Assembly (NCBI GenBank): GCA_027622555.1
Contig: JAQBYJ010000044.1
Location: 1-42,154, forward strand
Source of the DNA: Verrucomicrobiota bacterium
GTDB taxonomy: Bacteria; Verrucomicrobiota; Verrucomicrobiia; Opitutales; UBA2995
Length of the DNA: 42,154 nt
Direction of reading: 5' to 3'
In this document: in pieces, positions 4,672 to 35,054 of the stretch
Position numbering within the stretch: the stretch's first letter is position 1
Layout of the letters: each line of letters starts with the position of its first letter
Program-made: the position numbers and the translations under genes
Notes under the pieces: model-generated
What the model was told of the DNA's origin: nothing
The model's database searches: none
The model's input: the letters and a program-made list of their open reading frames with translations, nothing else

Positions 4672-5100
4672 TCCCACACAAAGAAGGCCAAAGAAAAAGA
4701 TACTTGCAGGCCATGGAATCAGGCCGAAAGCCGTCAAGTAGTTCGCCAATATTGTGAGATAACCAAAAATCATTGCTGTGTTTTGACCTTTGGTCTTCTT
4801 CGCCTTATTAAGTAAGAAGCTTGTAACAGGATATAGATGAAGAGTCCCGTATATCCCATTTGATATTCGCCAGATCACAACTTCATTGTCCGTGAAATCA
4901 ATCAACAGGATCGGAACAAAACAACCCAACAAGACCACCAAGGTCGGCGCAACCATGGAGAGGATGCGAAGATACTCACTCTCGCCCAACTTCAACGACG
5001 ATCGTTCTCCGAATACCAAGACGATGCCGGTAAATCCAACTAAAGTAATAGCGACTTGAGCGATGGTATGAAGTGTCCCGATCTGTTCCAAGGTTTCCAT
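4672..5100 (-). pseudogene. Multi-pass membrane protein, 3' truncated
   Basis: From the ATG at 5100 the frame encodes about 143 residues of clear membrane-protein character. Hydrophobic segments lie near residues 12-30 (AQVAITLVGFTGIVLVF), 47-68 (LSMVAPTLVVLLGCFVPILL), 78-95 and 107-140. Sequence quality then collapses into proline-rich residues (ISPLPFLPCPMTPFLPCP) translated from the tandem repeat, with a stop at 4546. The intact protein was probably around 160-180 residues. I do not recognise the family. The fragment faces the DUF6090-like fragment across the repeat, so both lost their 3' ends at the same junction. Expression of the N-terminal part remains possible. Confidence 0.55.
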
Positions 5101-5515
5101 TCAATATTAGAGTTCTTCGTGTCCTTCGTGGTTAACAATCAATCCTCCAACAAGGCATCAAACCGCGGATTCTCACGCCATGTCTCGCCATCTTGTCTCG
5201 CCGAAACTTACCTGAAGGCGGGTTAGAGGAGCCATTATCTGGACTGGGTGGAGTATCTTGATCCATGGGGTGAATGAGAAGATGGGTGAAGCCCATTTAT
5301 TTACATGCAATAAGCTGCTGGGACTCAAGACTGGATTATTGGGAGCTGGGTGATTGCGGAAGTCCTTTTATCCGAAAAAATCTGACCGCTTTGATTAATA
5401 CCAATACCAACGGCGGTCTAGACAGTCGATCCACACCCCCATCGCTCAATGTGGATAACAATAACCGTACATAAAAAAGCCCCCACTTTTTGGTAGAGAC
5501 CCCGTTGATTATTAA
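5101..5515. other. Gap with no convincing gene
   Basis: About 415 bases. The left part contains TTCTTCGTGTCCTTCGTGG, a type of GTGTCC/CGTGG repeat often seen between genes of environmental bacteria, and two TCTCGCC units near 5184 and 5196. A 66-codon frame at 5274-5474 lacks protein-like composition. The right end holds a weak terminator for tRNA-Arg. Confidence 0.5.
5474..5491 (-). terminator. Possible terminator after tRNA-Arg
   Basis: On the minus strand the sequence reads AAAAAG-TGGGGG-CTTTTTT, a short stem with a T run, 25 bases beyond the tRNA 3' end. The stem is A/T-rich, so stability is low. Confidence 0.3.
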
Positions 5516-5591
5516 TGGTACGGGTGGCAGGAATCGAACCTGCGACCTACGGTTTAGAAAACCGCAGCTCTATCCTCTGAGCTACACCCGC
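5516..5591 (-). tRNA. tRNA-Arg (anticodon TCT)
   Basis: On the minus strand the cloverleaf starts GCGGGTG (acceptor), with D-arm TAGCTCAGAGGATAGAGC. The anticodon stem GCGGT/ACCGT surrounds loop TTTCTAA, giving anticodon TCT for AGA codons. The T-arm reads GCAGGTTCGATTCCTGC and the acceptor closes with CACCCGT. The discriminator is A and CCA is encoded (5516-5518). Partial copies of its 5' half lie just upstream of the gene. Confidence 0.95.
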
Positions 5592-5644
5592 ATAATAGAA
5601 ATCAGGGGAAAATAGAAAGTCGCATCGGTAGGTCAACTTAGTAT

Positions 5645-31834: not shown

Positions 31835-33433
31835 CTACTTAGAAGAATCTTTTTTCTGAGGTTCCAGCTTCGCAACGTAATGCACAATTCTCCAGGCATG
31901 GTGGGCGAGCCTTCTTAACCATCTGGCCCCGTCCAATGCTCGATCCAATTCGTCGGCGGTAAGTTTGCCCTGAGTGGCGCTCTGGATAGCTTGGGTCCTA
32001 AAGCTTGATTTATCTGTCCTGAGTTGATCTTCAAATTGGGCAAAGTGCTCCAACGAATTCGGCTGACCCCGTTCTTCAATTTCAGCAGCAAGATTCATCA
32101 GGCTTCTTGCCAAGCTTTGAGCGCGCAAGGCCAGGTCGTGGTGTTTTAACAACCCTTCAGATTGCGTTGTATTACGAACTCTTTGCACGAATCGCTCCAA
32201 ATGATCAATGATGTGCAGGAGTGAGAAAAGACGGTCTGTATCAAGCTCGTTTACTCCTGATTTCTCTCCTGCTCTCACTGCGTAGTCTCTCGCATCAGAT
32301 ATGGCTTTTTCAGCTTCTTCCAACTTGCGGAAATGGTTCTCTTTAATATCACCAGTAAGTATACGGGACCCTAGTTTTAGAACGGAGCTGGCGATGCGAC
32401 GGCATGCCGTTTCCAATGCCTCTATTGCGGCTTGATCGCCGAGGAATTTATGGTCGAGCGGCGAGATCAGAAGATTTTCCCGTTCTGGAATCATTCGAAT
32501 AATCAAACGTCCGAACTGCTGGGTAAAGGGAATCGCCACCAAAACACCGAGGGCATTGAAAGCGGAATGAAATGAGATCACAATGAGCTCAGGTGACTGG
32601 ATTACGGTGGTTGGGAAATAGGTTCCGCAAAACCACAAATAGAGCGGAAGAAAGAAAAAGGCCAGAACCCCGGTAAACACATTAAAGATCACATGGGCAA
32701 AGCCGGTACGTCTGGAAGCTGTATTGCCGGTGATAGCTGCCAGAGCGGCAGTGCCAGTCGTGCCTATGTCCGCGCCAATAACAACCGCCGCCGCTTGAGG
32801 AAGATCCAACATTCCAGTAACCAGTGCCGTGATTGAAGCGGCCACGGTAGCACTGGATGATTGTGTTACCAGGGTTATGCCGACCCCAAATAGTAACAGC
32901 AAAATACGACCGCTGAATCCGCTCGAATCAAAGGAACTGAAATCGACCAAATCTTGTAATCCGGCAAGACCGTCCTGCAGGTAACTGATGCCGAGAAAAA
33001 TGAGAGCAAATCCTGCCAGAGCTTTGCCGGTGCTTCTGACTTTTGGATACGCTTTTACCAAGTAGAGTATGGCAGCGATAAAGAGTAAAGGAAGGGCGGC
33101 CGTTCCAAGCTTTAATTTGAAACCAATGACCGCAACCATCCAACCAGTGATGGTGGTTCCGAGGTTAGCCCCGAATAAGATGCCTAGAGATTGAGGAAAG
33201 GTTAGCAGGCCGGCCCCGACGAAACCGACGGTTGCTACGGTAGTCGCACTTGAAGATTGAACCAACGCCGTGGTTACTGCGCCGGATATGGCTCCGGAAA
33301 TAGGGGTGCGAGTTGCCTTGCCCAGCCAATGATGCATTTTATTTCCGGCCAGTCTCCGTAGTCCGGAAGTCATCAAGGCCATTCCAAAAAGAAACAGGCC
33401 TAAACCTCCGAGTGATTGTAGAGTGGAATCCAT
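31835..33433 (-). CDS. Na/Pi cotransporter family protein
   Basis: The 532-residue protein has two inverted membrane repeats, each with the family QSSSAT motif: GAVTTALVQSSSATTVATVG near residue 55 and GVGITLVTQSSSATVAASI near residue 187. Each is followed by a GANLGTT or GADIGTT stretch. This is the NptA/YjbB-type sodium-phosphate transporter. The C-terminal ~190 residues are helical with a PhoU-like character (EALETACRRIASSVLKLG, DRLFSLLHIIDHLERFVQ). It faces the M50-chimera gene across a 196-base divergent gap and converges on the amidohydrolase gene. The nearby PhoD-like phosphatase is consistent with phosphate acquisition, but no Pho box is recognised. Confidence 0.88.
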   Translation of the reverse strand: MDSTLQSLGGLGLFLFGMALMTSGLRRLAGNKMHHWLGKATRTPISGAISGAVTTALVQSSSATTVATVGFVGAGLLTFPQSLGILFGANLGTTITGWMVAVIGFKLKLGTAALPLLFIAAILYLVKAYPKVRSTGKALAGFALIFLGISYLQDGLAGLQDLVDFSSFDSSGFSGRILLLLFGVGITLVTQSSSATVAASITALVTGMLDLPQAAAVVIGADIGTTGTAALAAITGNTASRRTGFAHVIFNVFTGVLAFFFLPLYLWFCGTYFPTTVIQSPELIVISFHSAFNALGVLVAIPFTQQFGRLIIRMIPERENLLISPLDHKFLGDQAAIEALETACRRIASSVLKLGSRILTGDIKENHFRKLEEAEKAISDARDYAVRAGEKSGVNELDTDRLFSLLHIIDHLERFVQRVRNTTQSEGLLKHHDLALRAQSLARSLMNLAAEIEERGQPNSLEHFAQFEDQLRTDKSSFRTQAIQSATQGKLTADELDRALDGARWLRRLAHHAWRIVHYVAKLEPQKKDSSK

Positions 33434-33629: not shown

Positions 33630-35054
33630 ATGAAATGGTCATTTCCAATCGCTCGTATTTTTGGCACTCAGCTGCGCATTCACATAACATTCTTTCTGCT
33701 TCTTATATGGGTTGGATTTGCTTTCGCGGGCGAGGGTGATTGGACAGACGGTTTAACCGGCGTTGTCTTTGTTCTGGCACTTTTCGTTTGCGTGATATTA
33801 CACGAGTTCGGCCATGCGCTTACGGCAAGAGTCTACGGAATTAAAACACCAGATATCACCCTTCTGCCAATCGGCGGTGTGGCCCGACTCGAACGTATGC
33901 CCAAAGAACCCACGCACGAATTGCTGGTGGCCTTGGCTGGTCCGGCTGTCAATCTAGTCATTGCGGCCATTTTGTTTGTTATACTCCAAGCAGGAACTCC
34001 CTTCCGGGAGGCTTACATGAAACTGGATTCCTTAAGTGGGTTTTTCGGCAGTCTTATGCTCATCAACATCTGGCTGGTATTGTTCAACCTGATACCCGCA
34101 TTTCCCATGGATGGCGGTCGGGTACTGCGTGCTTTGCTGGCAACCAGATTGCCTTATGCCAAGGCTACAAACGTGGCAGCTTGGTTCTGGGATCGTGGTC
34201 AGGCCAAGGCAGTTTGGCTTCCTCCTCTTGGAGGAACTACTGTTCCTAATCGAGGGGCTTTTGGAGTGAGTGCAAATGGGAGCCAAGTAGTCGGTTGGGC
34301 CCAGGCTTCGTTGACTCAGCAAGCCGCCGTTATGTGGACCCATGGAGGAGCGCCAGTGGTGCTACACAAAACCGGCGACACGGTTCTTGGTTTGAGTGCA
34401 CTTTCAATTTCTCCCGATGGATCTGTTGTGGCTGGCTTTGCTTACAATGCAGGTACCGGGAAAAACACCGCGTTTAAATGGACGGAGTCAGGAGGCATGG
34501 TCGCTCTTTCTCCTCCCACTACCGGGACGCACGCTTTAACCTACACAACCGCTGTGCGTGTGAGTGCGAATGGCCGGGTAATTGTAGGTTATGGAGAGAA
34601 CGTCTTGGGGAATGAAGAAGCTGTTTTCTGGGTGGATGAACAACCGTTCCGGGTGTCGGATATTGCATTTGCTGCGGGAGCTTTGCCAGCATCCTGGGAG
34701 CCATTTCGCGCGTACGGAGTCGATGCGACGGGCAACTCCATTAGTGGTTACGGGCGTGCGACCAGTGGTAAAATTGAAGCCTACGTTCTGGTGCTTGATG
34801 CCAGCTATATTCCTCCTCAACCTCCACCGCCGCCATTACCGATTATTAAGTCCGCTTTTATTGAGGGTTCACTTTCCATTCGGTTTGTTGGAGTCCCTGG
34901 AATCGACTACAGAATCAGGGGAGGTAAGAACCTGAAAACCTGGAATACCCTGGATGACTGGAAGGAAGGCACAGGACAGGAAGTTTTGTTTGCAACGATT
35001 CCGGACCTTTCGGATTCCGGGTATTTCATTCAAGTGGAGGCACGTGCCGACTGA
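33630..35054 (+). CDS. Chimera: M50 site-2 protease core fused to a HAF-type beta-repeat tail
   Basis: Residues 1-183 are a site-2-protease-like M50 core: N-terminal helices, HEFGH at 58-62, TLLPIGGVARLERMPKEP, ALAGPAVNLV and FPMDGGRVLRALLATRLPYAKAT, with the metal-binding Asp near 161. Relatives then continue with a further helix and CBS domains. Here the sequence switches near residue 183 (nucleotide ~34179) to AWFWDRGQAKAVWLPPLGG. It continues as a soluble, secreted-type repeat region (GAFGVSANGSQVVGWAQ, LSISPDGSVVAGFAYN, VRVSANGRVIVGYGEN) of the HAF kind, ending with a module (VPGIDYRIRGGKNLKTWNTL...GYFIQVEA). No stop or frame break lies at the junction. It is either a genuine new architecture, a product of deletion between two genes, or an assembly join. 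Confidence 0.8.
   Translation: MKWSFPIARIFGTQLRIHITFFLLLIWVGFAFAGEGDWTDGLTGVVFVLALFVCVILHEFGHALTARVYGIKTPDITLLPIGGVARLERMPKEPTHELLVALAGPAVNLVIAAILFVILQAGTPFREAYMKLDSLSGFFGSLMLINIWLVLFNLIPAFPMDGGRVLRALLATRLPYAKATNVAAWFWDRGQAKAVWLPPLGGTTVPNRGAFGVSANGSQVVGWAQASLTQQAAVMWTHGGAPVVLHKTGDTVLGLSALSISPDGSVVAGFAYNAGTGKNTAFKWTESGGMVALSPPTTGTHALTYTTAVRVSANGRVIVGYGENVLGNEEAVFWVDEQPFRVSDIAFAAGALPASWEPFRAYGVDATGNSISGYGRATSGKIEAYVLVLDASYIPPQPPPPPLPIIKSAFIEGSLSIRFVGVPGIDYRIRGGKNLKTWNTLDDWKEGTGQEVLFATIPDLSDSGYFIQVEARAD

Follow-up and report, generated by a model that had tools for sequence, protein, structure and literature searches.

A site-2 protease core joined in frame to a HAF-repeat tail in a Verrucomicrobiota bacterium: a probable deletion scar

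Results

The genome encodes a single open reading frame in which an M50 site-2 protease core is followed by a HAF-repeat tail. We conclude, with a probability of roughly 0.7, that this frame is the in-frame scar of a deletion or recombination that joined genes of two ordinary families, and not a selected fusion. The frame lies at 33630-35054 on the + strand of the window (the whole 42,154-nucleotide stretch analysed; contig JAQBYJ010000044.1). Translation yields 474 codons (474 aa) and zero internal stops, confirming that it is a real open frame.

Judging from family and structure matches, residues 1 to about 183 (33630-34178, + strand) form an M50 site-2 protease core (MjS2P/SpoIVFB type) that includes TM1-TM4, and residues about 184-474 are a HAF-repeat tail that ends in a proline-rich linker and a beta module at the C-terminus; on the scores obtained, neither domain match is due to chance. 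Pfam PF02163 (Peptidase_M50) matches residues 47-182 (E 2e-24), MjS2P (PDB 3b4r) aligns with residues 1-185 (E 6e-32) and SpoIVFB (PDB 8vjl) also matches (E 2e-10). The zinc motif of TM2 (HExxH) occurs as HEFGH at residues 58-62, with H58, E59, G61 and H62 invariant in the alignment of relatives, and the xDG motif after TM4 occurs as FPMDGG at residues 158-163, within an invariant stretch from P156 to R164. The AlphaFold model of the protease core is mostly above pLDDT 90, and 3b4r is the first Foldseek match to the model of the fused frame. The tail alone scores 34.0 bits against NCBIfam TIGR02913 (HAF_rpt) and the whole frame 30.6 bits (cut-off 22.65). The repeat part, with four VSxDGxxVxG motifs recognised by motif count and by comparison with relatives, spans 34179-34800 (+ strand). 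It is followed at 34801-35054 (+ strand) by the proline-rich linker and C-terminal beta module, then the stop; residues 395-454 match L044, an exported-type protein of a related genome (BLASTP, 33% identity).

The closest relatives of the protease half are full-length S2P-2xCBS proteins (55-60% over the core). Lacking from the fused frame, as indicated by alignment and hydropathy, are TM5, TM6, the interdomain linker and the two CBS domains of these proteins. Four hydrophobic spans are seen versus six in one relative (L062), which then has a CBS-type tail. A six-TM membrane domain is not present, the alignment to relatives stopping before TM5, and Pfam gives no CBS domain match in the fused frame. 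In sampled S2P relatives (n=138), FPMDGG is followed by 84-233 aa, or by 38 in one exception, and the sequence there is HAF-like in none. The exception is from Sinorhizobium psoraleae (4989-5603), where the S2P frame stops 38 residues past FPMDGG, before TM6 and CBS; its sequence suggests a frameshift or a truncated gene. In the organism's own genus, an S2P core was detected only in G002 at the threshold used, and the gene there is full-length.

The HAF half is also incomplete. HAF relatives typically have seven VSxDGxVVG motifs: seven were counted by pattern in L035 and L037 and by eye in L036, L038 and L041, three proteins for which the pattern gives too low a number, and L033/L034 have about 8 by eye. 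By the motif pattern, the fused tail has four motifs, at residues 213, 260, 311 and 364, the last of which corresponds to the last motif of the relatives. The tail starts inside a repeat, behind protease TM4, and about three leading motifs are absent. Also absent is the hydrophobic, signal-like N-terminus found in most of the HAF relatives fetched. The pattern of motifs and the strand content suggest that the HAF family forms a propeller, in which case the tail would be about three blades short and unable to close a normal ring. As the tail is modelled poorly (pLDDT about 35-60), this argument draws on motif counts, made partly by eye. We do not rely on the Foldseek hits that link the tail to propellers (TolB and others), since they fall in this low-confidence region. 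No second HAF gene was found in the genome as a source or mate, in a family search that is weak for single repeats and missed even the window's own HAF. Another frame, L039 of G014 (237 aa, open), in which no signal start is evident and the HAF motifs number only about three, is perhaps another 5'-truncated HAF gene.

Alignment places the switch from protease to HAF sequence at about residues 180-185 (34167-34185, + strand). Relatives read ATRIAA-x-x-GQ here (LPY..AT.IAA..GQ) and continue into TM5; the fused frame reads ATNVAA followed by WFWDRGQAKAVWLPPLGG, and the latter part aligns as a HAF-like unit. TM5/CBS-like sequence was not found in the other two frames 3' of the join, nor did a search of the genome with a CBS tail as query detect any, and a frameshifted continuation of the protease past the join was rejected on these results.

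The preliminary description of this frame agrees with these results in most structural respects. PF02163, 3b4r and the near-complete invariance of the motif columns bear out its intact catalytic core (HEFGH, FPMDGG). Its account of a beta-repeat tail standing where the downstream helix and CBS region should be is upheld by alignment, hydropathy and TIGR02913. The 474 open codons agree with its in-frame join lacking a stop, and the position it gave for the join, 34179, is good to a few codons.

The join at 34.18 kb falls inside a variable part of the genome. The ends of the contig (506-2883 and 39064-41700) are neighbours in G001 and G005, two genomes of the same genus, in identical order and orientation, and the distance between them is 36 kb here versus about 4 kb in both of those genomes. 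Read from sequence and not from a family search, the first of these segments appears to end in a lipoate-ligase-like gene and the second to hold a chorismate-synthase-like gene. The variable interval (2900-39063, delimited by comparing loci L184 and L185 with the window) is flanked on one side by the lipoate-ligase-like gene and on the other by the gene preceding the chorismate-synthase-like gene. Several genes of this interval have counterparts dispersed in G001, at 1.10, 1.92 and 4.30 Mb. The Na/Pi cotransporter-like gene beside the fusion (31835-33433) has best matches in the genus of only 34-39% identity, unlike genes further out, and its neighbourhood may therefore have been acquired. Genes to either side of the join have close matches in the organism's own genus at 81% and 87% on the left and 78%, 74% and 87% on the right. 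A cross-species chimera was rejected, as genes on either side of the join match one and the same genus.

This setting bears on whether the fusion exists in the cell at all, or is a product of assembly, in which two genes were joined or the stretch between them was left out. We regard such an artefact as unlikely. A single wrong join of distant loci at 34.18 kb is improbable because the contig ends are collinear neighbours in G001 and G005, and the close same-genus matches for genes on both flanks also argue against it; simple misassembly is disfavoured on these comparisons. At the junction itself, none of the 12-mers from 34120-34260 recurs in the window, no DNA repeat is recognisable, and elsewhere in the genome the junction DNA has only short chance matches (nearest 15-42 nt, E at least 0.8). 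Nor was the detached protease half (TM5/6/CBS) found elsewhere in the genome, other contigs included (best E 0.26). What keeps the artefact in consideration is that the fusion is known from one genome of 238 contigs that resembles a metagenome assembly, that it was found nowhere else, and that each half is independently known as a gene; a skip confined to this region, or strain mixing, is possible.

Our survey covered 88 relatives, 373 genomes from the order, 388 from the phylum and 80 named loci, the majority of these loci belonging to other phyla; it turned up many S2P cores and no S2P-HAF fusion in another genome. A first scan of genome contigs with the full fused protein as query returned no relative, and none of the ORFs or loci fetched matches both halves (the two-family overlap set is empty). 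In nine relative genomes both families are present, each in a gene of its own at a different place. An intact S2P gene adjoining an intact HAF gene was seen in no relative locus examined, and an ancestral arrangement was not found. Conserved local synteny was also considered and rejected, as the Na/Pi cotransporter and SRPBCC protein neighbours are not kept around the S2P genes of relatives.

The preliminary description had proposed that related genomes be examined for the same fusion, and none was found in those of the order and phylum. It had also raised the case that the halves are separate neighbouring genes with intact ends in relatives: separate and intact they are, but they are neighbours in no locus examined. 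Of the two origins it had offered, a deletion joining two genes is the one we favour, as both halves are incomplete and no relative has the fusion; a new fused architecture gains nothing from relatives, none of which shares it, or from a tail that is an incomplete repeat set.

Discussion

We suggest that a deletion or illegitimate recombination occurred inside the variable 36-kb region. On this account, an M50B site-2 protease gene would have lost its 3' half (TM5, TM6, linker and CBS pair) and a HAF gene on the same strand its 5' half (about three repeats out of seven, together with the signal region), and all intervening DNA would have gone with them. The two remnants would have been left in one frame by chance, as expected one time in three. 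The product, if translated, would retain TM1-TM4 and the zinc ligands, and its propeller-like tail, incomplete and probably misfolded, would face the cytosol. Because the lost spans, TM5 and TM6, are even in number, whatever follows TM4 should lie where the CBS domain does, in the cytosol, and a normally exported domain would therefore be left inside. The CBS domain of SpoIVFB sits beneath the cytosolic regions of TM4-6 (PMC11486902). With this and the even span count, the oddity of an exported-type tail on the cytoplasmic side, pointed out earlier, holds.

Pro-sigmaK is not processed by SpoIVFB that lacks the linker and CBS domain (PMC11486902). Since SpoIVFB needs these parts, and TM5 and TM6 are gone here too, loss of protease function is likely, and the fused product is most likely an inactive protease heading for decay. 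In favour of a scar are the incompleteness of both halves at the join, the absence of the fusion from relatives and the variability of the region. Against it are the 291 tail codons that lack a stop or frameshift, the two intact zinc-site motifs, and the fact that an intact S2P beside an intact HAF is found in no relative. Given the stop-free tail, the event, if the gene is decaying, would be recent or the frame kept.

The open 474-codon frame, the intact catalytic motifs and the well-modelled core would also be expected of a working, minimal 4-TM site-2 protease whose TM5-6 and CBS sensor have given way to a HAF domain, beta-propeller-like and cytosolic, for binding a ligand or substrate; moreover, MjS2P cleaves in vitro when its CBS domains are absent (PMC11486902), so these domains are dispensable there. 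However, TM5 and TM6, present in relatives, are lost along with the CBS pair, the repeats fall about three motifs short of a full set and are modelled poorly, and the arrangement is seen in 0 other sampled genomes. We consider it very improbable. Were it functional, a site-2 protease would work in the absence of TM5 and TM6, its CBS part replaced by a domain of the propeller type; none of the present results favours this. An open, in-frame, two-domain frame can mimic a new architecture, and counting the units on each side of the join reveals that the halves are incomplete.

The deletion-scar reading resembles known in-frame chimeric gene remnants that arise by deletion between two genes of the same strand: the join is precisely where each half of the fused frame is cut, what was lost is absent and the region is variable. 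It differs in that an ancestral neighbouring intact pair was not found. Like MjS2P and SpoIVFB, M50B proteases with a CBS tail, the frame has the HExxH and (F)PMDGG motifs and TM1-TM4 with strands between TM2 and TM3; unlike them, it lacks TM5, TM6, linker and CBS and has an unrelated beta tail instead. Compared with HAF-repeat proteins (TIGR02913), the tail lacks the signal-like start and about three leading repeats and sits behind a membrane protease core, but it retains four repeats, including the characteristic last one, and a C-terminal module like that of the exported-type protein L044.
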